Below, piece by piece: positions 2,632 to 18,591 of a stretch of 18,614 nt of DNA. The notes under the pieces are model-generated. The model had not been told where the DNA came from. It ran no database searches and saw only the letters and a program-made list of their open reading frames with translations. The stretch is from the NCBI GenBank assembly GCA_003141795.1, contig PLNO01000295.1, positions 1 to 18,614 on the forward strand. The letters are read 5' to 3'. Position 1 is the stretch's first letter, and each line of letters begins with the position of its first letter. Source of the stretch: Spirochaetaceae bacterium (GTDB lineage: Bacteria > Spirochaetota > Spirochaetia > SZUA-6 > Fen-1364). A program made the translations under genes and the position numbers.

Positions 2632-3372
2632 CTACTGTCTCTCCACGACGACGATGTCGACCCTGCGATTGTACGCTCTGCCTTCGGCCGTGTCGTTGGA
2701 TTGTACGGGCCGCGTCTCCCCGTAGCCGGACTCCGACAGCCTCTCGGTCGGGATGCCGTAATCTTCCAGCGTCTGCAGCACGGCCACGGAGCGTTCCGCG
2801 GAGAGCTGCCAGTTGCCGCCCGTCCATCGCGATGCATCGGGGGGAATGTTGTCCGTATAGCCTTCGACGACGATGGAGTTGGAGATCTGTCCCAGGAAGT
2901 CGGAGACCTCCTGGAGCACGGGCATTGCGTCGGGACTGAGCGCAGCCGAAGAGGAGGGGAAGTACAGGTCAGACACCAGAGAGATGGCGAATCCGTTCTC
3001 CGTGGGTATCACGCGCACCTTTCCCGCTTTGACCAGATTCTGCAGCGACGAGGTGGCCTGCGTCCGTAATATGGAGGTCCCGCCTGTCCCCTGCCGGGCA
3101 CCGCCACGGCTGCTCTGCACCTTCTGTCCGGGGCTCACCCCTTCCAGAACGCCGCTGCCGCCGCCGTGCGTCGCGAATATCGTGAAGTTCGCACCGTTGA
3201 ACACGCTGTTGAAAGCCTCCGCCATCTGCTGGAACTTGGTCTGGCTCGGGCTGCTCTGCGCGTAGAGGATGATGAAGAAAACCATCAGCAGCGTGATCAT
3301 GTCCAGATACGTGAGCATCCACCGCTCGAGGTTCTCTTTGGGTTCCTCTACCTTCCGCTTTTTTCGCGCCAT
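2632..3372 (-). CDS. motB: MotB, flagellar stator subunit with OmpA-type peptidoglycan-binding domain
   Basis: A 246-residue protein that anchors the stator ring to peptidoglycan and carries the ion. A basic N-terminus is followed by one membrane helix (about 17-38) with the essential ion-binding Asp24 in TYLDMITLLMVFF. A linker and plug region of about 90 residues is rich in Gly, Ser and Gln. The OmpA/MotB domain (about 125-246) shows VEGYTDN (168-175), NWQLSAERSVAVL (187-199), LSESGYGETRPV (212-223) and NRRVDIVV. It starts 12 bases after the motA stop with a GGAG ribosome site, so motA and motB form one operon. The TYLDMITLL helix differs somewhat from classic TYADMVTLL forms; whether it uses protons or sodium cannot be read with confidence. 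Confidence 0.93.
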   Translation of the reverse strand: MARKKRKVEEPKENLERWMLTYLDMITLLMVFFIILYAQSSPSQTKFQQMAEAFNSVFNGANFTIFATHGGGSGVLEGVSPGQKVQSSRGGARQGTGGTSILRTQATSSLQNLVKAGKVRVIPTENGFAISLVSDLYFPSSSAALSPDAMPVLQEVSDFLGQISNSIVVEGYTDNIPPDASRWTGGNWQLSAERSVAVLQTLEDYGIPTERLSESGYGETRPVQSNDTAEGRAYNRRVDIVVVERQ

Positions 3373-3384
3373 TTTCCGCTCCGC

Positions 3385-4182
3385 CTACTCCGCCTTGTTC
3401 GCGTCGAGCTCTTTCTTTTCCTGCTCCTCGAGGAACCCTTCGATCTTTTCCTTGACCAGCGCCGGGCTCTCCCCCTGCTGGATGGAGCGCACGCCGACGA
3501 TGATGAGCTGTTTCTCCAGCCGGAACTTCTTGATCTGCCCCTTGAGCTTGTTGCCAATGGGCAGCCAGAAAAGGTTGGCAAGACCGATCCCGTACAGGGT
3601 CGCGATGAACGCAGTGGCCACTGCGCGGCCCAGCTCGTTCATGTCGCCTCCGAGGCGTCCGAGAACGAGGACGAGGCCCATGACCGTCCCGATGATGCCC
3701 ATGGTGGGGGAGAAGCCGCCGGCCGTATCGAACAGGGCCGCGTCCTCCACCTTGCGCGCCTCGAGGATCGCGAGATCGCTCTCCAGCACTTCCACCAGGA
3801 TCTCAGACTCCGTGCCGTCCACGACGAGGCGCAGGCCCTTGCGGAGCGTCTCGTCCTCCAGGTCCTCCACCGTGTCCTCGAGGCTGAGGATGCCGTCCCG
3901 CCGCGCTTTCTCGGCGAACTCCAGGAGCTGCTGCGCGAGCTGTGGCGACGGCCCCGGCTCGCGCCTCATGGACTGCATGACGAGCGAGGGGATGCGCAGA
4001 ACGTCCTTCAGGCTGGAGGAGATGGTGAGGGCTCCTGCGGTTCCCGAGACGATGATGATGAGCGCGGGGATCCCCACGAGGGCTACGATGTTTCCGCCGT
4101 CGAGAATGAAGCCTCCGAGCATTCCGCCGAGAGCGATGAGCAATCCAATCGCTGTCGAAGTGTCAGAACCCTTCCTGGCCAT
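3385..4182 (-). CDS. motA: MotA, flagellar stator ion-channel subunit
   Basis: A 265-residue inner-membrane protein of the MotA/TolQ/ExbB family. Four membrane helices are visible at about 11-27, 33-50, 157-177 and 190-210, with a large cytoplasmic loop between helices 2 and 3. The two functional prolines are present: Pro159 in GGFSPTMG and Pro208 in LPIGNKL. In the loop, ARRDGILSLE places Arg94 and Glu102 eight residues apart, matching the Arg90/Glu98 pair of E. coli MotA that contacts the rotor protein FliG. The start at 4182 is supported by AGAAGGAG upstream. The neighbour motB follows in the same operon. No other flagellar genes are nearby, so the stator genes stand apart from the main flagellar cluster in this window. 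The C-terminus is highly charged (KELDANKAE). Confidence 0.93.
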   Translation of the reverse strand: MARKGSDTSTAIGLLIALGGMLGGFILDGGNIVALVGIPALIIIVSGTAGALTISSSLKDVLRIPSLVMQSMRREPGPSPQLAQQLLEFAEKARRDGILSLEDTVEDLEDETLRKGLRLVVDGTESEILVEVLESDLAILEARKVEDAALFDTAGGFSPTMGIIGTVMGLVLVLGRLGGDMNELGRAVATAFIATLYGIGLANLFWLPIGNKLKGQIKKFRLEKQLIIVGVRSIQQGESPALVKEKIEGFLEEQEKKELDANKAE

Positions 4183-4266
4183 CCGTGACTCCTTCTGATT
4201 GCACGACCGTCAGTCTACCTGTCCGGGGGGCGCGGGACCACCAGAGACGTGCCCTGCTCCCCCCTT

Positions 4267-4277
4267 AGTATATCGGC
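4267..4277 (-). promoter_or_regulatory. candidate motA promoter: sigma28-like -10 (GCCGATAT) overlapping TATACT
   Basis: On the minus strand, GCCGATAT (4277-4270) matches seven of eight bases of the flagellar sigma28 -10 consensus GCCGATAA. It overlaps a sigma70-like TATACT (4272-4267). The -35 region is poor for both: only a CAA core is found near the expected sigma28 TAAA position, and no TTGACA-like hexamer at 17 bases. The implied leader to motA is about 80 bases. FliA control of motAB is established in enterics; here it is inference. Confidence 0.4.
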
Positions 4278-4292
4278 AGATTCCGGGAACTC

Positions 4293-4321
4293 TTGCCTGC
4301 CAAGCTCCGTGGTCGTATCAT
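4293..4321 (+). promoter_or_regulatory. sigma70-type promoter of the Rieske-reductase gene
   Basis: TTGCCT (4293-4298), a 17-base spacer and TATCAT (4316-4321) match the consensus at four and five of six positions. Transcription would start near 4328, leaving a leader of about 11 bases that just contains the AGGGGG ribosome site. It supports the start codon at 4339 over the longer reading frame beginning at 4249, whose first codons would precede the promoter. Confidence 0.5.
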
Positions 4322-4338
4322 CACCTGAGGGGGTGGCC

Positions 4339-5922
4339 ATGGCAGACATCGAATGGCGGAAAGCGTCATCTGACAGCGCGCTCGTCGAAGGCGTACCGGT
4401 CGTCGTCCAGCTGGGGGAGGAGAAGATCCTCCTTGCCCGGGTCAAGGGTACGGTGTATGCGGTCGGCCACGAGTGCCCCCATTACCAGGAAAAGCTGGAA
4501 AACGGCGTCCTGTTCGGCGCTGAAATCGTCTGCAAGAGCCATTTCGCCCGCATGGACGTGACCACGGGCAGGGTCGTCTCCGCCCCTGCCATGAACGATC
4601 TCCCCGTCTACCCCGTAAAGGTCCAGGAAGGCGAGATCTGGGTCGGGCCCGCCGAGAAGCCGAAGTTCCCCAAGCCCCCGGCCCCGATCGGTTCGGACCC
4701 GAGGCTCTTTCTCATCATCGGTGCGGGAGCCGCGGGAAACGCCGCCGCGGAGACGCTGCGCCGCCAGGGCTTTGCCGGCAGGATCTGCATGGTCACCGAC
4801 GAGCAGGAGCGGCCGTACGACAGACCCAATCTCTCCAAGGACTTCATCACGGGGAAAGCCGGGGAGGAATGGCTTCCCCTGCGTGGCCCCAAGTTCTATC
4901 CCGCCCAGGGCATCGAGCTCCTGACGGGCCGCAGGGTCGCCTCCCTCGACCCCGTCGGCAAGACCGTGCGATTCGCCGACGGTGAATCCCTGGGCTTCGA
5001 CAAGGCGCTCATCGCAACGGGCGGGACGCCGCGAAAGCTCTCCGTACCGGGCGGCGACGGCTGCCTCGTTCTACGCACCGCCGCCGACGCGCGCGCGCTC
5101 CTGGCTGCGGCCGCGCAGGCCCGCAGCGCCGTTCTCATCGGCGCGGGTTTCATCGGCCTGGAGCTTGCCGGGAGCCTCCGCGAGCGCGGCCTCGCGGTGA
5201 GCGTCGTGGCCCCCGAAGCCATTCCGCTCGCCTCGGTGCTCGGCGACAGAATCGGCGCGGGGCTCATGGCGTTGCACCAGGCAACGGGCGTGAGCCTCCT
5301 GATGGGACGAAAGCCGGTGCGGATCGAAGGCGCCGCGGGGGTGAAGGTCACGACGCTGGATGACGGCACGCGCCTTGAATCCGACTTCGTCGTCGTCGGG
5401 GTGGGCGTGCAGCCCGCGATCGAGTACCTTGACGGCACCGCGCTCATCGCGGCGGGGGCGGTGCCCGTGGACGGCGCGATGCGGACCAGCGTGCCCGACA
5501 TCTTCGCGGCCGGAGATGTCGCCGCGGTTGCCGGTCCGGACGGTGTGAGGCGGCGTGTGGAGCATTGGGTCGTCGCCGAACGCCAGGGAGCACGGGCCGC
5601 CCTCGGAATGATGGGCAGGGATCCGGGTCCCGCGGAGGTGGAGGTCTTCTGGAGCAGGCAGGCCGGCGCCTCATTGAAGTACGTCGGACACGCCCGTGAC
5701 TGGGACCAGATCGTGTATCGGGGATCCGTGGAAGAGGGCAAGTACCTCGCCGGGTTCTACAACAAGGGCACCTTGAGGGCGGGGGCGAGCATCGGAATGG
5801 CGAGGGATCTGGTTGCCGTGGAGCGCATCCTGCGTCTGGGCGGGGGGCTTTCCGCCGCGGAGCTCGGCGACGCCTCCTTCGACCTCATTGCCGCCGCGCG
5901 GGCTATGGGTCGATCTGGATGA
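4339..5922 (+). CDS. Rieske-domain / FAD-dependent pyridine nucleotide-disulfide oxidoreductase fusion (AIF-like)
   Basis: A 527-residue predicted cytoplasmic electron-transfer enzyme. The N-terminal Rieske [2Fe-2S] domain (about 1-105) has both ligand pairs, Cys46-Pro-His48 and Cys65-Lys-Ser-His68. A linker of Pro and Lys leads to an FAD/NAD(P)H reductase (about 120-500) with GAGAAG (128-133) for FAD, RPYDRPNLSK (158-167), ATGGTPR, GAGFIG (268-273) for NAD(P)H, and FAAGDVA (389-395). A reductase C-terminal dimer domain follows. This layout is known from AIFM3-like and ferredoxin/rubredoxin reductase-like proteins; its physiological acceptor is not shown. The start at 4339 has GAGGGGGT upstream. 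A frame starting at 4249 would add 30 unrelated residues and is rejected. The 3' end overlaps the convergent STAS gene by 20 bases. No electron-acceptor gene is adjacent. Confidence 0.88.
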   Translation: MADIEWRKASSDSALVEGVPVVVQLGEEKILLARVKGTVYAVGHECPHYQEKLENGVLFGAEIVCKSHFARMDVTTGRVVSAPAMNDLPVYPVKVQEGEIWVGPAEKPKFPKPPAPIGSDPRLFLIIGAGAAGNAAAETLRRQGFAGRICMVTDEQERPYDRPNLSKDFITGKAGEEWLPLRGPKFYPAQGIELLTGRRVASLDPVGKTVRFADGESLGFDKALIATGGTPRKLSVPGGDGCLVLRTAADARALLAAAAQARSAVLIGAGFIGLELAGSLRERGLAVSVVAPEAIPLASVLGDRIGAGLMALHQATGVSLLMGRKPVRIEGAAGVKVTTLDDGTRLESDFVVVGVGVQPAIEYLDGTALIAAGAVPVDGAMRTSVPDIFAAGDVAAVAGPDGVRRRVEHWVVAERQGARAALGMMGRDPGPAEVEVFWSRQAGASLKYVGHARDWDQIVYRGSVEEGKYLAGFYNKGTLRAGASIGMARDLVAVERILRLGGGLSAAELGDASFDLIAAARAMGRSG

Positions 5923-9631: not shown

Positions 9632-10714
9632 TCAGGCCTGCTCGGGCGGCGGGGGAGGGGGACGTCGCGGGGTACGGCGCCGCGTCGTCTTGCCCAGGAG
9701 CATGGCGATGCGGGCGGTCGCGGGAACGCGCTCGAGGATGATCTTGATCGACGCGGTGACGGGAACCGCCAGGAGCACGCCGGCAGCTCCCCACATCCAG
9801 CCCCAGAAGAAGAGGGACAGGAAGATGACGAAGAAGGACAGATCGAGCCTCTCCCCGAGGAAGCGCGGCTCGATGAAGTTGGAAATCGTGAGGTGCATGA
9901 CGATGAGGCTCGCAGCGACCGCTATCGGGAGCCCCGCACCCGAGAACTGGATGAGGGCGATCAGTGTGGGCAGCGCGATCGCCGTGATGGGCCCGAGGGT
10001 GGGGACGAAGTTCAGGAGGATGGTGAGGAATCCCCACGTCACCGCGAACTCAACGCGGAAGGCCAGCAGGATGAGCGCCGTGCCGATCCCGACGACGAGG
10101 CTCGCCAGCGCCTTGATGCCGAGGAAGGCCCGCATGTGGCGGTCGATGTGCTTGAGCATCACGACCACCATGCTCTGACGGCGCGGGAAAACGGTGAGCA
10201 TCATGCGGATCATGCTGTGCTTCCCGAGGAGGAGGATGATCGCGAAAAAGAAAATGAGCACGAACTCCGAGAAGAACCTGAGGCTCGAGCGTGCGAGGCT
10301 CATCAGCACGGGACGCACGGGCAGATTGCGCAGCTCCTCGAAGGGATCGATGGCGATCTGCATCCCCGTGCTCCTGCCCACACCCTCCACCAGACCCTGC
10401 GCGCGGGCGAGGATCTCCTCCTGAAACCGCGGGAAGCTGCGGGCGAAATGGGGGAGGTCGAGGTAGATCACGACGCCGAGGCCGGCGAAGACCGCCGCAA
10501 AAACGATGACGGCGATGCCCGCGGAGAGCCACAGCGGCAGGCGCATGCGCGTGTTGAGAACGACGACGAGGGGGTCGATCAGGTATACGAGAAGCATCGT
10601 GAGGAGGAGGACGATGATGACGGGTGCCGCGAGCTTGAGCACGACGCCGGAGAGGAAGATCACGATTGCTAAGAGAAGATGGTTCGTGGTCTTGCTGGGT
10701 GAGGGCTCAGGCAT
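9632..10714 (-). CDS. AI-2E/PerM-family transporter
   Basis: A 360-residue inner-membrane protein with about seven or eight hydrophobic helices. The order is typical of the AI-2E/PerM (UPF0118) family: two N-terminal helices, a third helix before a soluble segment (about 90-150), then a C-terminal bundle. Family signatures are NFVPTLGPITA, ISNFIEPRFLGERLDLSFFVIFLSLFFWGW and AAGVLLAVPVTA. Members have been linked to autoinducer-2 export or to sodium/proton antiport; the substrate here is unknown. The C-terminal tail is basic and ends with six consecutive prolines before EQA. The start at 10714 lacks any ribosome site, and no better in-frame start precedes the first helix, so a leaderless transcript is possible. 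It is divergent from the carbamate kinase gene. Confidence 0.87.
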   Translation of the reverse strand: MPEPSPSKTTNHLLLAIVIFLSGVVLKLAAPVIIVLLLTMLLVYLIDPLVVVLNTRMRLPLWLSAGIAVIVFAAVFAGLGVVIYLDLPHFARSFPRFQEEILARAQGLVEGVGRSTGMQIAIDPFEELRNLPVRPVLMSLARSSLRFFSEFVLIFFFAIILLLGKHSMIRMMLTVFPRRQSMVVVMLKHIDRHMRAFLGIKALASLVVGIGTALILLAFRVEFAVTWGFLTILLNFVPTLGPITAIALPTLIALIQFSGAGLPIAVAASLIVMHLTISNFIEPRFLGERLDLSFFVIFLSLFFWGWMWGAAGVLLAVPVTASIKIILERVPATARIAMLLGKTTRRRTPRRPPPPPPEQA

Positions 10715-10720
10715 CGGTTC

Positions 10721-10749
10721 AATCCATCAGAACGAGGACTCCGTGTCAA
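10721..10749 (-). promoter_or_regulatory. candidate promoter of the AI-2E transporter gene, predicted leaderless
   Basis: On the minus strand, a perfect TTGACA -35 (10749-10744), a 17-base spacer and a weak -10 TGGATT (10726-10721). The -10 is preceded by TGA, as in an extended -10, and only six bases separate it from the ATG. The start point would fall about at the start codon, which fits the missing ribosome site. The -35 overlaps one arm of the hairpin at 10747-10783. Confidence 0.4.
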
Positions 10750-10783
10750 GGGGGGATGCGCGGATGACGCGCATCCCCCCTTG
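10747..10783. repeat. 16-bp perfect inverted repeat between divergent genes
   Basis: Arms CAAGGGGGGATGCGCG (10747-10762) and CGCGCATCCCCCCTTG (10768-10783) are perfectly complementary around a five-base loop, GATGA. It lies upstream of both divergent genes, so it is not in the position of an ordinary terminator for either. No run of T follows on either strand: GTTATTC follows on plus and ACACGG on minus. It overlaps the transporter -35. It could be an operator, a transcription insulator, or a remnant terminator. Confidence 0.85.
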
Positions 10784-10811
10784 GTTATTCTTTCGAACGC
10801 CGCGGTGGGGG

Positions 10812-10817
10812 TATACT
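10812..10817 (+). promoter_or_regulatory. candidate -10 of carbamate kinase gene, predicted leaderless
   Basis: TATACT (five of six) lies six bases before the ATG at 10824, so transcription would begin at or next to the start codon. No ribosome site is present at the usual distance, and no convincing -35 is found 16-18 bases upstream (TCTTTC at best). A longer transcript from further upstream, containing the hairpin in its leader, is an alternative. Confidence 0.4.
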
Positions 10818-10823
10818 ACCGGC

Positions 10824-11798
10824 ATGAACAGCGCAAAGAAGGTGGCGGTGATCGCCATTGGCGGCAATTCCCTGATCCGTGACTCCGGGCATACCACTGT
10901 CGAGGACCAGGAGGAGGCGCTTCGCGACACGGCGCACCACCTTGCTGACATGATCGCCGAAGGGTGGGACCTCGTCATCGGGCACGGCAATGGGCCCCAG
11001 GTGGGGTTCATCCTGCGGCGATCGGAGATCGCGCACAAGGTGGAGGGGATGCACGAGGTGCCGCTGGACGTCTGCGGCGCGGACACCCAGGGCGCTATCG
11101 GCTACGAGCTGCAACAGGCACTGCAGAACGAGCTCTACCATCGTGGCATCCACAAGAACGTCGCCACGATCATCACACAGGTGCTCGTCGACCGAACGGA
11201 TCCTGCCTTCTCGGCGCCGAGCAAGCCCATCGGTGGGTTCATGGACGCCGCGGAAGCCGAGCGCCGCCGCCGCGACATGGGATGGACCGTCGTCGAGGAT
11301 GCGGGCCGGGGGTGGCGCCGCGTCGTGCCGTCTCCCCAGCCGAAGGAGATCGTCGAGCTGGATTCGATCAAAGCTGTCATCGACAAAGGGATCATCGCCA
11401 TCGCCGTCGGCGGCGGAGGCATCCCCGTCGTGGATGTCGGTGACGGGGAATACAGGGGCGTCGCCGCGGTCATCGACAAGGATTTCGCGTGCAGTCTGCT
11501 CGCGCGGGAGCTGAAGGCGGATCTCTTCCTGATCGCCACGGCCGTTGACAGGGTCGCGATCGATTTCGGGACTCCTCAAGCGAAATGGATCGAGCGGATG
11601 AGCCGGGCCGAGGCGGCAGCCTACCTTCAGGAGGGCCGCCACTTCAAGAAGGGGTCCATGGCGCCGAAGATCCAGGCCATCCTCTGGTACCTCGAGGCAG
11701 GGGGCCCGGAGGCGCTGATCTGCACGCCGCAGGGGATCGGCAGGGCGCTCAAGGGGGAGACGGGGACCCGCATCATCGGTGATGCGGCCTCGAAGTGA
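10824..11798 (+). CDS. arcC: Carbamate kinase
   Basis: A 324-residue cytoplasmic amino-acid-kinase-fold enzyme that interconverts ADP plus carbamoyl phosphate with ATP, carbamate or ammonia and CO2. Diagnostic motifs are AIGGNSL (11-17) near the phosphate site, GHGNGPQVG (53-61), the subdomain KPIGGFMDAAEAERRRRDMGW, VGGGGIPVV, AVIDKDFACSLLA and FKKGSMAPKIQA. The length matches the family. In fermenters it usually makes ATP at the end of the arginine deiminase pathway or in agmatine, allantoin or purine breakdown. Here no arcA, arcB or other catabolic gene lies next to it, so the source of carbamoyl phosphate is unknown. The frame is open further upstream to 10506, but that part is antisense to the transporter; 10824 gives the canonical N-terminus. 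Confidence 0.94.
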   Translation: MNSAKKVAVIAIGGNSLIRDSGHTTVEDQEEALRDTAHHLADMIAEGWDLVIGHGNGPQVGFILRRSEIAHKVEGMHEVPLDVCGADTQGAIGYELQQALQNELYHRGIHKNVATIITQVLVDRTDPAFSAPSKPIGGFMDAAEAERRRRDMGWTVVEDAGRGWRRVVPSPQPKEIVELDSIKAVIDKGIIAIAVGGGGIPVVDVGDGEYRGVAAVIDKDFACSLLARELKADLFLIATAVDRVAIDFGTPQAKWIERMSRAEAAAYLQEGRHFKKGSMAPKIQAILWYLEAGGPEALICTPQGIGRALKGETGTRIIGDAASK

Positions 11799-11822
11799 CG
11801 GGAGGCCTTACGGCCTCCGTCA
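11796..11822. terminator. shared hairpin between convergent genes
   Basis: TGACGGGAGGCC pairs with GGCCTCCGTCA around a TTAC loop, giving 11 base pairs with one bulged G. The stop codons of carbamate kinase (11796-11798, plus) and of the caspase gene (11822-11820, minus) form the two feet of the stem. The position fits a bidirectional terminator, but the T tract is only two bases on the plus side and absent on the minus side, so its efficiency is uncertain. Confidence 0.55.
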
Positions 11823-13685
11823 TTCGGCCTGCATCACGACGCGGAACCCCTGGTCTTCCTCCTCGGAGGTGACCGGCTTCATCTGCGAGTAGCCTGCGGT
11901 GAAGTACTTCGGGCGTGACACCCGCCAGCTCCCGCCCGCGGATGCGGCGAGGTCCGTGGACCCGTCGGCCGCCTTCCCGTGATCCGAGCACCATTCGCTG
12001 ACGTTTCCCGCAAGCATCTTCACGCCGTCCAGCGTCACGTCATTGAGGAAGAAGAGCTCCTGCAGCGGCCCTGACTCTCCCTGCAGGGGGAGGACGTCGG
12101 GCGCCTCCGAATCAGCGCACTGGCAGTAGGCGGGATCCCAGTCGTTTCCCCAGGGATACGTGGAGTCATAACGTCCGCCCGCCGCATACCGCCACTGGGC
12201 GAGGCTCGGCAGCGCCGCGCTCTCCTTGAACTTCTTCGAAAACCACTTCACGTAGGCGACACAGTCGTCCCAGGTGACATGGATGACGGGATAGAAATCG
12301 TAGGCGGGCTTGTAGTACGTCTCCCAGGTCCCCTGCGCCCTGTATCCCGACTGCTTCACGAAGTTTGCGAACTGCCCGAAGCGCACCTCGGTCATGCCCA
12401 TCCAGAAGCCGGGCATGCCGCTCTTTCCCTTCACGAACACGAAGGGCATGTCGCCGACCTGACGGTTGTCCCGCTCGGGCTTCACGATCAGCATGTTCGC
12501 CACGCGGGTCCGCGCGCCGTCCTTGACGGTGAACTCCTTCTCGAAAACGCCGTAGGGATGCGTGATGACGATGCGATGGATGCCGGCTGCGATGTCGTCG
12601 AACAGCCGTGTCTGTCCCTTCGCGATGTCGCCCTCCGCCGCGCCGTCGATCTCTACCGTGCCCTCCACGTTGGAGTAGACTTCCATCGAGCCCGCCCCGG
12701 GGGCGACCGCCGCCTGTTCGACGCCGGCGTCGATGCGGGTGGTCGCGTCGATGCTCGCGCTGTACGTGGAAAGCGCCAGATCCCCGAATGATTCCCCGTT
12801 GTAGCTGATGGACGGGGACTGGTCGAGCTGCTGCTCGTGCGCGTAGCTCGTGACCTGCTGCTCCACGAACCTCGACAGCTCACTGAAGGTGACGATGCCG
12901 TCACTGTTTCCGGACTGGTAGTCCGCCTTGCCCTTGACCCCCTCCAGGAGGAAGCGGGTGAAGATCCCGTGGTCGGAGTTCGGGTCATCGTAGCTCGACC
13001 AGCCCGTTTTCGTGGCGTAAAAGACCGCCGAAATCCTCGATTGCTCGTAGCGTGCCGCCCTGAGGCTCGTCTCCGCCAGGCCCCTGCCGCCGCTTTTCGC
13101 CATCGTCACTCTGCACGCGTCGAGCAGGAGGAGAGATTTGCTGACGGAGAGCTTTCCGACCCAGTCGACGATTTCCTTGACCGGGAGGCTCGTGGTCCAC
13201 TTCTGCGCTACGCGCGTGTCCGCGACCAGAAGGTACCCGTCCCCCTCCTCGGTGGCGATCCCGTGACCCGCGAAAAAGAAGACCACGAGGTCCTCCGGGC
13301 GGATCTGGGAGGACAGCGCTGCCATGCGGGCGCGGATATTCACGAGGCTGGGGTAGGCATGACCGGCGTCGTAGGCGGGGTCGATGTCGTCGGTCATCTT
13401 CACGACGGTGTCGAACTGCGCGTACTTCTTCAGCGTCTCGGCGAGCTCCGCCGCGTCATTGCGCGCGCCCTTGAGCCGGGGGATACCCTTGTCCATAAAA
13501 TCGTTGATGCCGACGCACAGCGCATAGCGCTTCCCCGCGTTGCCCTGGATGCCGGCGATGCTGCCGGCGCCCTTCACCGTGACGAGCCCGCGACTCCCCT
13601 CCTGGGTGCCGAGCAGGAGAAGCATGGCCAGGGGGAGGAGCAGCGCGATGCGTCGCCCTCCCCGCGGTAACAGCCTTTTCCTCAT
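11820..13685 (-). CDS. Exported caspase-like peptidase (C14) with PEGA-like and SUMF1/FGE-like domains
   Basis: A 621-residue protein with a basic N-terminus and hydrophobic core (about 12-26), suggesting export. The caspase domain (about 52-300) shows the early GARNDAAEL motif (73-81), catalytic His141 in FFFAGHG and catalytic Cys191 in LLLLDACR. An EF-hand-like loop lies at 258-269 (SGNSDGIVTFSE) with Asn3, Asp5, Gly6 and Glu12 in place but Ser at position 1. A PEGA-like beta segment (about 331-400) follows. A C-terminal SUMF1/FGE-like domain (about 410-620) has MTEVRFGQF, PVIHVTWDDC, LPSLAQWRYAAGG, PWGN, LAGNVSEWC, GGSWRVS and QGFRVV. The segment after GGSW lacks the cysteine pair that FGE needs, so it is probably a binding rather than oxidase domain. 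The ATG lies two bases after the preceding stop with no clear ribosome site, implying coupling. The last gene of the operon; substrate unknown. Confidence 0.85.
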   Translation of the reverse strand: MRKRLLPRGGRRIALLLPLAMLLLLGTQEGSRGLVTVKGAGSIAGIQGNAGKRYALCVGINDFMDKGIPRLKGARNDAAELAETLKKYAQFDTVVKMTDDIDPAYDAGHAYPSLVNIRARMAALSSQIRPEDLVVFFFAGHGIATEEGDGYLLVADTRVAQKWTTSLPVKEIVDWVGKLSVSKSLLLLDACRVTMAKSGGRGLAETSLRAARYEQSRISAVFYATKTGWSSYDDPNSDHGIFTRFLLEGVKGKADYQSGNSDGIVTFSELSRFVEQQVTSYAHEQQLDQSPSISYNGESFGDLALSTYSASIDATTRIDAGVEQAAVAPGAGSMEVYSNVEGTVEIDGAAEGDIAKGQTRLFDDIAAGIHRIVITHPYGVFEKEFTVKDGARTRVANMLIVKPERDNRQVGDMPFVFVKGKSGMPGFWMGMTEVRFGQFANFVKQSGYRAQGTWETYYKPAYDFYPVIHVTWDDCVAYVKWFSKKFKESAALPSLAQWRYAAGGRYDSTYPWGNDWDPAYCQCADSEAPDVLPLQGESGPLQELFFLNDVTLDGVKMLAGNVSEWCSDHGKAADGSTDLAASAGGSWRVSRPKYFTAGYSQMKPVTSEEEDQGFRVVMQAE

Positions 13686-13687
13686 GA

Positions 13688-16177
13688 TCAGAACCCGAAC
13701 ATGTACCCTGCGTTCAGGCTGACGCTGAAGTCCGACGAGGTGGCGTTGGAGGAGTACACGTCCATGCCGAGGGTGAAACCGCCGTTTCTCTTCTCATTGA
13801 GGAAGGCGAGCCCGCCGCCGGCCGTGAACCCTCCGCCGAAACCCACGTCGAGCACGAAGGCCAGGTCCGACGTTTCGATGTCACCGATCATCATGTCGAT
13901 GGTGAACGCCCCCCCCGGATTCGATCCGACGACGTCATCGAACAACCCGCCGATCCCCAGACCGAGGCCGGGCAGCATGTACCAGTACAGCTGTGCGGCA
14001 AGGGTGATGGCCAGACCACTCTTCGTGGTGTAGTGATACGAGCCCGAGTAGTACGAGGAGCTCTCGTAGCTTCCGTACCCGATGCCCGCCGCCATGTTGA
14101 GGAAGAAGCTCGACGGCTCGATGTCGCCGCGTGAGGCCGGCTTCGACGCGGTTGCGGCCGCTCCCGCGGCGTCGGCCTGGGTGGCGATCACCGGCGTCTG
14201 GCCCGCGGACTTGCCGACGCTTTCGGCCCTCCTGTTGGCGTTCTGCTCGGCCGTGGCCCTAAGTGCGGCGAGGTCGACGAAGACGACGAGGTCTTTTTCA
14301 GGGAGGATCTGGCTCTTTTTGAACGTTTCATCGATGCCCTGCCACCACGTGGAGGAGCCGTCCTTGGAGACGCCGCGGGTCCAGATGGTGTAGGTGACTT
14401 CGGGATACGCGTCCCAGTCCGCCTGTGCATATTCGCTCGCGATGGTGATCTTTTCCTTGTCGCCCCAGTACAGCTTGTCCACCGCAAGGGACTGATCGTT
14501 CACGTGGATCCAGCCCCAGTAGCCGAATCCCGGCTGAAGGATGAAGGTCACCTTCGTCATGCGCGGGGATTCGATTGCCTGCTTCTCCTGCAGCCCGAAG
14601 TCCGCGATCTGCAGCTTCACGTCCTTGGGCTCGCGCACGGTCACGGACAGCGGCTTGCTGGTGAGCGTGAGCTTCGTGGACGTGTACCATACCCCGGTGA
14701 TCCCGCTCAAGCCCTCGGGCGGATTGCGCGACACCACGACGTCGTACGCGGCAAGCGGCACATTGCTGATGAGGATGTCCTGCGTGGCAGGCCGGTACTC
14801 CGCGAGGACCTTGTCGGATTTCCCGGCGTCAGCCTTGCGTGTCGCGTTGTCCTGCTTGTCCTTGGAGATCTCCCCGTCGGCGAACGTGACGGTGAACGGG
14901 TCCTGCGGCATCGCCGGGTCGAAGATCTCCCACCAGTACTGCTCGCGCTGCTTCTTCGGCGTGGCCACGATCACGTACGAGGTGGTGGGGGCGATGCCTC
15001 CGATGGTGATGGTCCCCTTGGGGGTGTCAAGGTGCTGCTTTTCGATCACGACGTTCCTGATATCCCCCGCGCCGATCGTGAAGGGGACGGTCTTGATCTG
15101 CTGGGTTTTGCGGTTGTACACGGAGATGACGTACTGCCCGGGGAGCACCCAGTAGAAGACGTTCTTCCTCACCTCACGCTTGTCCGAATCGTCGGAATCC
15201 GCGACGGTCGCGTCGTTCTGCTTCACCTGGCGCGGCTGCCAGAACAGGCGGTAGTCGTACGCAGGACCGTTCGGCGCGGCCTGCGTGCCGCCGATCTGCG
15301 TGTCCGTCGGGGCCGTTCCCGAGACCTCCGCGCTCTCCGAGATGGTGAACTGGGCGCAACTGCTGTTGAGAAGATCCGTCATGATCCGCTGGCAGATCTG
15401 GGCACACGCGATGGGGAGGTCGTGCAGGTCCCGTTCGACGACGGCTGCGTAGGAGTAGACCTCCTCCGCTCGTCGCGTGTTGAGGACCCGGACATTGATC
15501 CCGATGGCGTCGTTTTCCCGGAACTTCGTCTCGTATACGTTGCCCAGGACGAGGAAGTTCAGGTCCGTGAAATTGAAGGCGCCGACGCTTTTCGTGTACA
15601 GGTCGCGGACGGTGAAGCTCCCGTTTTGAAGGGCGCTCTCCACGTACTTCTTGTCGTAGATCTTGAAGATGGAGGGGAAATACAGGCGGGCGACCTGACG
15701 GTCTCCGATCCTCGCGATCTCCTCCAGCGCGGTCGAGTGCGCCGCCGCTGCCGCGGCGGCCTTGACGGCGTCGTCCATCGCCCGGTTGCGCGAGCTGTCG
15801 TCCGACGCGCGGGCGTACGCCTCGGCGGCCCTGTCGATGGCGTCTGCCGAGGCCCGTTCCGAGGCGTTGTCCATCACGAAAAGCCGCGCGTTGACCGTCG
15901 TCATGCCGGGATCGTACACGGGTGCGCCGGTGATCACGCGGCCGTCCTTCGGCGCGTAGACCGCGTTCGCGGCGTTCTGCTGCACGAGCACGGTCATGAG
16001 CGCCTGGCTGATGAGCTGCCCGTAGAACTGCTTGCTCGCCTGTCTTTCCGGCGCGCTCATGGATACCTCGAAGTCCGCGACCGCGACGGTCGGGGGGACG
16101 AGATACGTGAAGTCCTGCGCGTTCGCCGCCACGGCGAATGCGACGAGTGCTGCGGCGATGAGAAGTGCACGCTTCAT
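13688..16177 (-). CDS. Exported CsgG-like protein with C-terminal outer-membrane beta-barrel
   Basis: An 829-residue protein with a clear signal peptide (cleavage likely after ANA at 20). The N-terminal third (about 30-270) resembles the CsgG/curli-assembly fold: TVAVADFEVS, then NFLVLGNVYETKFRENDAIG and INVRVLNTRRAEEVYSYAAV. It is interrupted by an Ala-rich helical stretch (about 104-157). A long beta-rich middle (about 280-600) is unrecognised; it includes several PEGA- or immunoglobulin-like stretches. The last 140 residues (about 690-829) are alternating aromatic/Gly strands ending SVSLNAGYMFGF with terminal Phe, as in outer-membrane barrels. The start at 16177 follows a strong GGAGGT. 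It lies 19 bases after the lipoprotein stop and 2 before the caspase start, so all three are probably co-transcribed. The function is not known; outer-membrane placement is inferred. CsgG similarity was judged by eye. Confidence 0.75.
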   Translation of the reverse strand: MKRALLIAAALVAFAVAANAQDFTYLVPPTVAVADFEVSMSAPERQASKQFYGQLISQALMTVLVQQNAANAVYAPKDGRVITGAPVYDPGMTTVNARLFVMDNASERASADAIDRAAEAYARASDDSSRNRAMDDAVKAAAAAAAHSTALEEIARIGDRQVARLYFPSIFKIYDKKYVESALQNGSFTVRDLYTKSVGAFNFTDLNFLVLGNVYETKFRENDAIGINVRVLNTRRAEEVYSYAAVVERDLHDLPIACAQICQRIMTDLLNSSCAQFTISESAEVSGTAPTDTQIGGTQAAPNGPAYDYRLFWQPRQVKQNDATVADSDDSDKREVRKNVFYWVLPGQYVISVYNRKTQQIKTVPFTIGAGDIRNVVIEKQHLDTPKGTITIGGIAPTTSYVIVATPKKQREQYWWEIFDPAMPQDPFTVTFADGEISKDKQDNATRKADAGKSDKVLAEYRPATQDILISNVPLAAYDVVVSRNPPEGLSGITGVWYTSTKLTLTSKPLSVTVREPKDVKLQIADFGLQEKQAIESPRMTKVTFILQPGFGYWGWIHVNDQSLAVDKLYWGDKEKITIASEYAQADWDAYPEVTYTIWTRGVSKDGSSTWWQGIDETFKKSQILPEKDLVVFVDLAALRATAEQNANRRAESVGKSAGQTPVIATQADAAGAAATASKPASRGDIEPSSFFLNMAAGIGYGSYESSSYYSGSYHYTTKSGLAITLAAQLYWYMLPGLGLGIGGLFDDVVGSNPGGAFTIDMMIGDIETSDLAFVLDVGFGGGFTAGGGLAFLNEKRNGGFTLGMDVYSSNATSSDFSVSLNAGYMFGF

Positions 16178-16196
16178 GACTGGTACCTCCGTCCGC

Positions 16197-18389
16197 CTAC
16201 TTGAGGGGGAAATCCTGCTTGAGCTCGTAGTCTCCCGAGACCACGTTCACGACCGACACCTGGAGCGAATCCGGATCGTAGGCCACCAGCGGGAAGAACC
16301 GCGCGATGGGCGAGCTGGACGGGGGCTTGATGTACGGCGACGCCGGGGTGCCCGTCTCCAGGAGGGAGAAATAGATGATCTTGTCGATCCCGTAGTACGA
16401 CTTCAGGGGCGCTGTGGAGCCCCACTTGGACAGGAGCAGCGGGGAGAGATACAGCATCTCCTCGGGAACGTCCGCCGCGGTGTCCGCCAGCCGCACCGAT
16501 TTCTGCAGCAGGTAGCGGGAGTACAGCGACTCCATTTTTTCGTTCGGCGCCGCGTCTCCAGCGACGAGCGCGCTGCACAACCCGTCCTCGAACCACGACT
16601 GCATGAGGTTGACCGCCATGGTCATGTTCAGCTCCTGCGCCGGGGTCCACTTCTGCTCGTCCTCCTTCGCCTCCGCGGTTTTTGCCGGTTTCTGTCCGAA
16701 GGTCCGCAGCACCTCGTAGGCGTTGTAGTACGCCATCATCAGCGCGATCTGGTCCTTTCCCTTGGGGAGCCTGTTGAGGATGAAGTCCTCCGACTCGGTC
16801 TTTTCCCCGATATAGTTGTTGGCTATCTCCATGCGGCGGTTGACGAGGGAGGTATGCGTGGCGTCCGTGACGACGCCGCTCGAGCGCAACGCGGCGGCAA
16901 GTCCCGTGAAGCCCTTCGTGCGCGCATAACAGCGGTAGAGGACGTTCGCGTCGAGCTCAGCGTCGGTTCCGAACGAGAGGTAGTCGCTCAGCACGACCCG
17001 TCCGCTGTCCGCCATGTCCATGATCTTCACGTAGATGCCCAGGATCTTGCCGCTGAGCTCGAGGTCTTTGTCGCCCTGGAGGAGCTGTACGCCCTGGAGC
17101 GTCTTCCACATCACCCGGTAGCCGATCATGTACTGCGCGCCGTAGTAGCTGCGGAACTGGGAGTAGTCACCGCTGAGGAGCGGGTTGACGTAGTGCACCG
17201 CATGCGCGAGCTGCCACGGCTCCTTGTACTGCCGCGGATACAGCTTCTCCATGACCTGGACGGGTTGCCCGGCGCCGACCTGCAGGGAGGCGAAGAACGA
17301 CTCGAGTGCGTTCTCCACGGCGAAGTCCTCCCGCGTCACCGGGTAGGACCCGAAGACCGGAATGTCGTCGATCTTCACGAGAACGGCGCTCATCGTCCGT
17401 ACGCCCTGGTCGCGCAGCGTCCGTGCAAAAGCGTCGCGCTGCTGGGTCGCGACTTGCTGCGGAATGGTGAGCCGGGCGGTCCCCAGGAAGGGCACCTTTT
17501 CCCGCGGGAACTTGGAGGATGTGAGGGATTTCGTGCCGCTCCACAGGAGCTTCCCTCCGCGGGAGGCGTCGATGAGCCGGAAGCTCACCTGCATCCCGAT
17601 GTAGTCCATTCCCGAGGAGACGACATTATTGATCGAGTAGATGAGGACCTTTGCAATAACGTTGGGCTTGTACGTGTCCTGGATGTCGCTCCACGTGTTG
17701 AAGTTCACCATGTTCGTGTTGAATACGAGCTTGCCGCTCTGATGATCCGCCAGGCGCTTCTGCGCGAAGGCGGGTGTGTCGGAGGTGTCCATGGCTGTCG
17801 GCCACAGCCGCTCGAAGCCCTTGCCCTGCTTCTTGAGCACGGCGGCCAGGAGCCCGCTCTCGAAGGAATCGATGAAATAGGGATTGGCTCGCGCGAACTC
17901 CGTGACCGAGAAGCGGCCCAGACCGGAGTAGCCGGCCCCCCCGAGGGTGCGGCCGAGCAGGAGCTCGTTGTACTTGTCGCTGCCCGTCTTCAGCTTGTAG
18001 ACGTTGTTCGTGCTGTCGAGCTCGAACAGATCTCCCAGGAGCTGGAGCTCGGGTATACCGCCGGTTTTGTCGTCCGTCACGGTGAAAAGCTTTCGTGCGT
18101 TGGGGAGGATGGTCTCGTCGTAGTCCGACTGCTTCACTTCGAGAGGGGTCGGCACGAAACGCCATGCCTCGGTGCCATCGTATGCCGGCGCGTTCGCCAG
18201 CAGGATGCGATCTCCGCGGTCGATCCACTGTTCGACGATCGGCTGCAGCGCGTCCTGGCCCAGCTTGAAGACGTCGGAGTTGTTGATCGCCTCGATGGGC
18301 GCCGGCTTGGGAGCCGACGGGCATCCGCTGAGCACTGCCAGAACGCAGACCATGGCGGTTGCAGCGGCGATACGAAGGAATGTTCGCAT
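16197..18389 (-). CDS. Large lipoprotein with two CsgG/FlgO-like segments
   Basis: A 730-residue predicted lipoprotein: a hydrophobic signal ends in the lipobox VLSGC with lipidation at Cys23. Two segments have the strand pattern of CsgG/FlgO/LPP20-type domains, about 242-290 (VIAKVLIYSINNVVS, then VSFRLIDASRGGKLLWSG) and about 418-472 (YMIGYRVMWKTLQG, then GIYVKIMDMADSGRVVLSD). In known families this is the 'compound activity found, then subject/property described' beta pattern of periplasmic assembly proteins. The rest, including a helical part (about 480-640), is unrecognised. The start at 18389 is fixed by AAGGAGG; a longer frame to 18455 would put 22 residues before the signal peptide. 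It is the first gene of the operon with the barrel protein and the caspase, so they probably act together at the outer membrane. No enzymatic motif was found. Confidence 0.72.
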   Translation of the reverse strand: MRTFLRIAAATAMVCVLAVLSGCPSAPKPAPIEAINNSDVFKLGQDALQPIVEQWIDRGDRILLANAPAYDGTEAWRFVPTPLEVKQSDYDETILPNARKLFTVTDDKTGGIPELQLLGDLFELDSTNNVYKLKTGSDKYNELLLGRTLGGAGYSGLGRFSVTEFARANPYFIDSFESGLLAAVLKKQGKGFERLWPTAMDTSDTPAFAQKRLADHQSGKLVFNTNMVNFNTWSDIQDTYKPNVIAKVLIYSINNVVSSGMDYIGMQVSFRLIDASRGGKLLWSGTKSLTSSKFPREKVPFLGTARLTIPQQVATQQRDAFARTLRDQGVRTMSAVLVKIDDIPVFGSYPVTREDFAVENALESFFASLQVGAGQPVQVMEKLYPRQYKEPWQLAHAVHYVNPLLSGDYSQFRSYYGAQYMIGYRVMWKTLQGVQLLQGDKDLELSGKILGIYVKIMDMADSGRVVLSDYLSFGTDAELDANVLYRCYARTKGFTGLAAALRSSGVVTDATHTSLVNRRMEIANNYIGEKTESEDFILNRLPKGKDQIALMMAYYNAYEVLRTFGQKPAKTAEAKEDEQKWTPAQELNMTMAVNLMQSWFEDGLCSALVAGDAAPNEKMESLYSRYLLQKSVRLADTAADVPEEMLYLSPLLLSKWGSTAPLKSYYGIDKIIYFSLLETGTPASPYIKPPSSSPIARFFPLVAYDPDSLQVSVVNVVSGDYELKQDFPLK

Positions 18390-18591
18390 GGCACCCTCCT
18401 TTGCACTCTCTGGAGAGACGATCGAGGCAGCCGACCGGGCTCGCATGAGCGTCAATGAGGGAAACCGCGGGCATATTGATAGCCCGTCGCTACGAAAACC
18501 ATTTTCATTGACACGTCAGGATCGACTGCGGACTGTTATCTGGGCACGATAGCATCGTTATCGTCGGCCCGTCAAGGGACATCAGGGGACC
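18390..18591. other. non-coding region upstream of the envelope operon
   Basis: About 200 bases with no convincing gene. It contains the candidate minus-strand promoter, and a CTCTC-TG-GAGAG inverted repeat near 18406-18417 just upstream of the lipoprotein ribosome site. It also contains a plus-strand TTGACA (18508-18513) without a well-spaced -10. The base composition is more AT-rich than in the neighbouring genes, as expected for a regulatory region. Confidence 0.6.
18546..18575 (-). promoter_or_regulatory. candidate promoter of the lipoprotein-barrel-caspase operon
   Basis: On the minus strand, TTGACG (18575-18570, five of six), an 18-base spacer and TATCGT (18551-18546, four of six) preceded by TGC, an extended -10. 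The inverted repeat ACGATA/TATCGT (18546-18564 on plus) overlaps the -10 and could be an operator. The leader would be about 150 bases, which is long for this window; a closer promoter cannot be excluded. Confidence 0.4.

Follow-up and report, generated by a model that had tools for sequence, protein, structure and literature searches.

Bacterial caspase homologues have mostly been studied in intracellular cell death and signalling. A survey of prokaryotic caspase homologues describes N-terminal helices, possibly signal peptides, in many of them, and counts caspase-FGE-sulfatase fusions in 33 of 671, so that a caspase-FGE fusion as such is already known (PMC3501461). We analyzed an 18,614-nucleotide stretch of DNA from a Spirochaetaceae bacterium (contig PLNO01000295.1; "the window" is this whole stretch), in which three adjacent minus-strand genes specify LP (a lipoprotein), MID (a secreted protein) and CASP (a caspase homologue). 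Like the prokaryotic caspase homologues (Peptidase_C14, 'metacaspases' or orthocaspases), CASP has an intact His and Cys in a caspase domain that scores above the Pfam cut-off; what sets it apart is the fixed operon that it forms with the genes of two dedicated envelope proteins. The LP-MID-CASP trio was not found in the literature searched, which covered few subscription journals and no preprints. The three genes are:

16197..18389 (read 18389..16197), minus strand: LP, 730 amino acids from ATG, lipoprotein
13688..16177, minus strand: MID, 829 amino acids, secreted protein
11820..13685, minus strand: CASP, 621 amino acids, caspase with signal peptide

In the window, 19 bases separate LP from MID and 2 bases separate MID from CASP, as an earlier reading made from the sequence only (the sequence-only reading) had described. 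AAAGGAGG precedes the ATG of LP, GGAGG precedes that of MID, and the MID/CASP junction reads TGA-TC-ATG. The sequence-only reading had made conserved rather than scattered homologues the test of its operon. Protein searches gave 29 LP, 27 MID and 73 CASP clusters; where names were given, they were spirochaetal for LP and MID and for the nearer CASP relatives, and the weaker CASP matches also took in Aminicenantes and other groups. Six genomes contained LP (G001 (L001), G002 (L002), G069 (L032), G738, G726 and G701), and in 6/6 MID adjoins LP and CASP lies on the same contig, showing that the trio is conserved and not scattered. The order and strand LP-MID-CASP are kept in five of the six. In the four most distant, LP is 30-34% identical to that of the window, so the gene order has survived long divergence. 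The LP/MID and MID/CASP junctions measure 19/7 bases in L001, 10/10 in L002, -4/2 in L056 and -1/3 in L057. Among clusters on contigs of at least 10 kb, the contig had exactly the same size as that of a partner cluster for 14/15 LP, 11/15 MID and 11/18 CASP clusters. The distances of LP, MID and CASP correlate over 11 sets (r 0.92-0.95; 0/5000 permutations), as joint inheritance predicts. These results show that LP, MID and CASP form a conserved unit.

The caspase domain of CASP covers residues 52-294 (PF00656, E 1.4e-20, 74.4 bits against a cut-off of 21.4), and PF00656 is matched by all 29 rows of the CASP alignment (A3). The dyad His141/Cys191, reported as intact by the sequence-only reading, is present in 57/57 rows covering both positions; the 58th row (P0089) is a fragment lacking the dyad region, and the 58 rows contain same-protein copies (window and P0057; P0078 and L056; P0086 and L058) and take in CASP relatives outside the trio. 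The dyad is thus invariant in these rows, whereas the survey gives it as intact in 89% of the homologues for Spirochaetes (PMC3501461), and CASP is probably active as a protease. At the N-terminus, 28 of the 29 aligned rows have a 12-residue stretch whose mean hydropathy is 2.2 or more, which agrees with the signal-like N-terminus noted before; the exception, P0080, starts inside the hydrophobic segment. Both the hydropathy and dyad counts leave out 23 weaker CASP clusters (P0107-P0129). At the mature N-terminus there is a conserved (S/A)RG(L/V) segment (Gly33 in 52 of the 55 residues present), which could be a self-processing site. The sequence-only reading placed the action of bacterial caspase homologues usually in the cytoplasm; this goes too far, given the possible signal-peptide helices that the survey describes in many of them (PMC3501461). 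That reading also suggested that the caspase might be gated or exported with its partners, for which we found no support; the signal peptide of CASP itself suffices.

The C-terminal part of CASP (residues 424-617) is a SUMF1/FGE-like domain (PF03781, E 8.1e-23, 81.8 bits against a cut-off of 23.3), which the sequence-only reading had overlooked. The GGSFLC..C segment of the FGE 5nxl, whose cysteines we take to be catalytic, aligns with GGSW-K-L (GGSWRV in the window), so the FGE active-site cysteine pair near the C-terminus is missing in CASP and an FGE enzyme activity was dropped. With these cysteines absent from the window protein, the domain is more likely a binding domain. CASP therefore shares a C-terminal FGE-sulfatase-type domain with the caspase-FGE-sulfatase fusions of the survey and differs in lacking the FGE cysteines (PMC3501461). 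It is also like SUMF1-fold proteins without FGE chemistry: the A3 profile matched PorK (E 8.7e-20) and the Treponema denticola variable protein 2y3c (TvpA; E 2.1e-13). An identity with PorK/GldK of the type IX secretion system (T9SS) was rejected, since the GldK model gave 38.2 bits against a cut-off of 350. A variable protein of a diversity-generating retroelement was considered too: no reverse transcriptase or retroelement was found among the 27 neighbouring genes scanned, and a template repeat was not searched for, so that CASP may yet be such a protein. The linker at about 330-410 looks PEGA-like by eye and has no Pfam match. Two relatives (P0097 and P0100) carry PF08308, but it is matched by 0/29 A3 rows at E <= 0.05, so a PEGA domain between the caspase and SUMF1 domains was dropped and is not claimed.

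We then compared LP and MID with described envelope proteins. The lipobox seen before on LP reads LSGC, and its Cys23 is kept in 22/22 aligned rows. The predicted model suggests that LP consists of tandem TolB-N/PelC/LpoB-like alpha-beta domains at about 54-298 and possibly at 308-474 and 489-730. When LP segments were compared as profiles, 32-305 against 300-485 gave a probability of 19% and the other pairs less, so the three-domain reading is one taken from the model. MID has a signal peptide, with an N-terminal hydrophobic segment in 20 of 21 rows (the exception starts late or is cut), and ends in ...YMFGF. Its predicted parts are:

about 21-273: MID TolB-N/FlgT-like domain, predicted model
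about 305-635: MID beta-rich middle, predicted model
690-829: MID C-terminal OmpX-like 8-stranded barrel, predicted model

The sequence-only reading had taken the second gene product for a CsgG-like barrel. The signal peptide and a predicted C-terminal barrel stand, but the predicted barrel is not CsgG-type and is absent from MID in three of the six genomes carrying LP. No Pfam family was matched by the window LP and MID at E <= 1, none of 22 LP and 21 MID rows matched a CsgG family at E <= 0.05, and a sequence search of solved structures gave nothing useful for LP and MID (best E 1.6 and 0.084). In the models, the soluble domains of both proteins may resemble the broad TolB-N/FlgT/PelC/LpoB/CsgG fold and nothing beyond them does, so 'CsgG-like' survives as a possible superfamily likeness of these domains. 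LP and MID differ from members of this fold in having no sequence-family match, and its pairing with a caspase was not found in any known system among the papers searched. In the CsgG pore, hairpins inserted into the periplasmic domain make up the barrel, whereas the predicted MID barrel is a separate, single-chain, 8-stranded one of OmpX type. It differs in turn from OmpX/OmpA-type 8-stranded barrels in that soluble N-terminal domains totalling about 670 residues precede it and that it is optional between lineages. The CsgG export pore was dropped on the barrel type and the missing family match, and the proposal of the sequence-only reading that a MID/LP outer-membrane pore exports the caspase or its products is very improbable. 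In another reading, LP and MID are a structural or enzyme-activating periplasmic module (for peptidoglycan synthesis as LpoB, for a flagellar ring as FlgT, or Tol-like) and CASP is only a processing or quality-control protease; we regard this as unlikely.

Signal peptides or a lipobox on all three products and the invariant dyad fit an exported proteolytic system like the surface or periplasmic one proposed earlier; its CsgG identity is not supported. We lean slightly towards a Sec-exported caspase-type protease that acts in the periplasm, with LP and MID holding or regulating it at the outer membrane. CASP would be exported through its own Sec signal peptide and would work in the spirochaete periplasm, with LP presumably located in the outer membrane. 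MID may also be anchored there where the OmpX-type barrel is present, its soluble domains facing the periplasm. The small domains of LP and MID would belong to a fold that builds rings or activates enzymes in PelC, FlgT, LpoB and CsgG, and might dock CASP and restrain or activate it. The SUMF1 (C-type-lectin-like) domain of CASP may recognize a ligand or substrate, after which activated CASP would cut envelope proteins, perhaps after Arg/Lys like other prokaryotic caspase homologues, with remodelling, stress response or self-destruction as candidate outcomes. Sequence supports the export, the unit and the dyad; docking, gating and substrates we infer. One divergent genome, G069 (L032), counts against the sequence-only reading: CASP and MID converge there from opposite strands, with 523 bases between the open frames, so CASP cannot be on the transcript of LP and MID in that genome. 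More tentatively, the trio may represent an envelope system of a new class: LP and an outer-membrane-anchored MID, both of undescribed families, would assemble and gate CASP, the lectin-like domain would survey the periplasm and envelope proteins would be cut under regulation, as caspase signalling outside the cytoplasm. A conserved operon exporting an intact caspase with two dedicated envelope partners would, if true, be a defined, testable system for an extracytoplasmic role, and LP and MID are two further protein families for which Pfam has no model.

To describe the distribution of the trio, we used genome draws, which are samples of the larger group; in the large draws, scoring covered the 2 or 3 top candidates of each genome, and a gene counted as absent may have been missed. 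LP was found in 2/392 sampled phylum genomes and MID in the same two, while the CASP profile matched 10/392 at E <= 1e-40, eight of these without LP and MID. In the class draw, CASP was found at E <= 1e-110 in 5/384 genomes, four with the trio and one (G785) without either partner. The order draw gave CASP at E <= 1e-100 in 2/390 genomes, and the family draw gave LP in 2/23. LP and MID were found in 0/15 stretches taken around other caspase matches (L033-L047). The G785 locus (L059) encodes a caspase and a SUMF1 domain that lack the linker, with nothing matched between them, and is a possible relative outside the trio. These results show that the trio is patchy and accessory in distribution. 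Such a distribution would suit an envelope-level defence or self-destruction system, in which SUMF1 detects damage or an invader, upon which the caspase, acting from the periplasm, kills or disarms the cell. SUMF1/FGE (C-type-lectin-fold) domains have indeed been proposed as sensors beside peptidase effectors in other bacteria (PMC10907252, PMC8195603), and the generic caspase profile PDLC02987 of PADLOC matches CASP (E 9.7e-10). However, this was the only PADLOC profile found in the trio, LP and MID matching no PADLOC model, and the 27 neighbouring genes scanned included no NTPase, no adapter domain and no diversity-generating retroelement; we consider defence quite unlikely. A secreted digestive protease for nutrition would likewise agree with export and accessory distribution. 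One trio-bearing lineage (P0078, L056) appears to be an unclassified member of Oceanispirochaeta, a genus with pure cultures (PMC11129491), so the trio should be testable at the bench. Strains M1 and M2 of this genus are described without observed proteolytic activity, and extracellular peptidase genes are reported absent (PMC11129491), although identity of the trio lineage with M1 or M2 is an assumption; nutrition is extremely improbable.

The genes around the trio vary between lineages (window, L001, L002, L056 and L057). An ADP-ribosylglycohydrolase and a topoisomerase lie beside it in L001, and a CHASE2-cyclase and a cytidylate-kinase-like gene in L002. Two related lineages (L056 4694-5371, L057 4941-5615) have a HlyIII-family membrane gene in divergent orientation to the trio, which is absent at the corresponding place in L001 and L002. 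The remaining features at the trio in the window are:

18546..18575, minus strand: sigma-70-like promoter match upstream of LP, TTGACG-18-TATCGT with TG, consensus match only
11780..11835, no strand assigned: strong hairpin where CASP and the amino-acid-kinase-family gene converge, between their ends, -36.9 kcal/mol, z -6.9
10506-11798, plus strand: amino-acid-kinase-family gene (carbamate-kinase-like by eye) that converges on CASP and shares the hairpin with it

The promoter match was the only one found upstream of LP in the window, against 0.1 expected. None of 200 shuffles gave as good a hairpin, which has no T run and is probably a shared transcription end for both genes. Farther away, 2632-4182 (minus strand) encodes a MotA/MotB-type pair (PF01618, PF13677 with OmpA), which fits a motile spirochaete-like organism, and 4249-5922 (plus strand) encodes a Rieske-type and pyridine-nucleotide-disulphide oxidoreductase protein (PF00355, PF07992).
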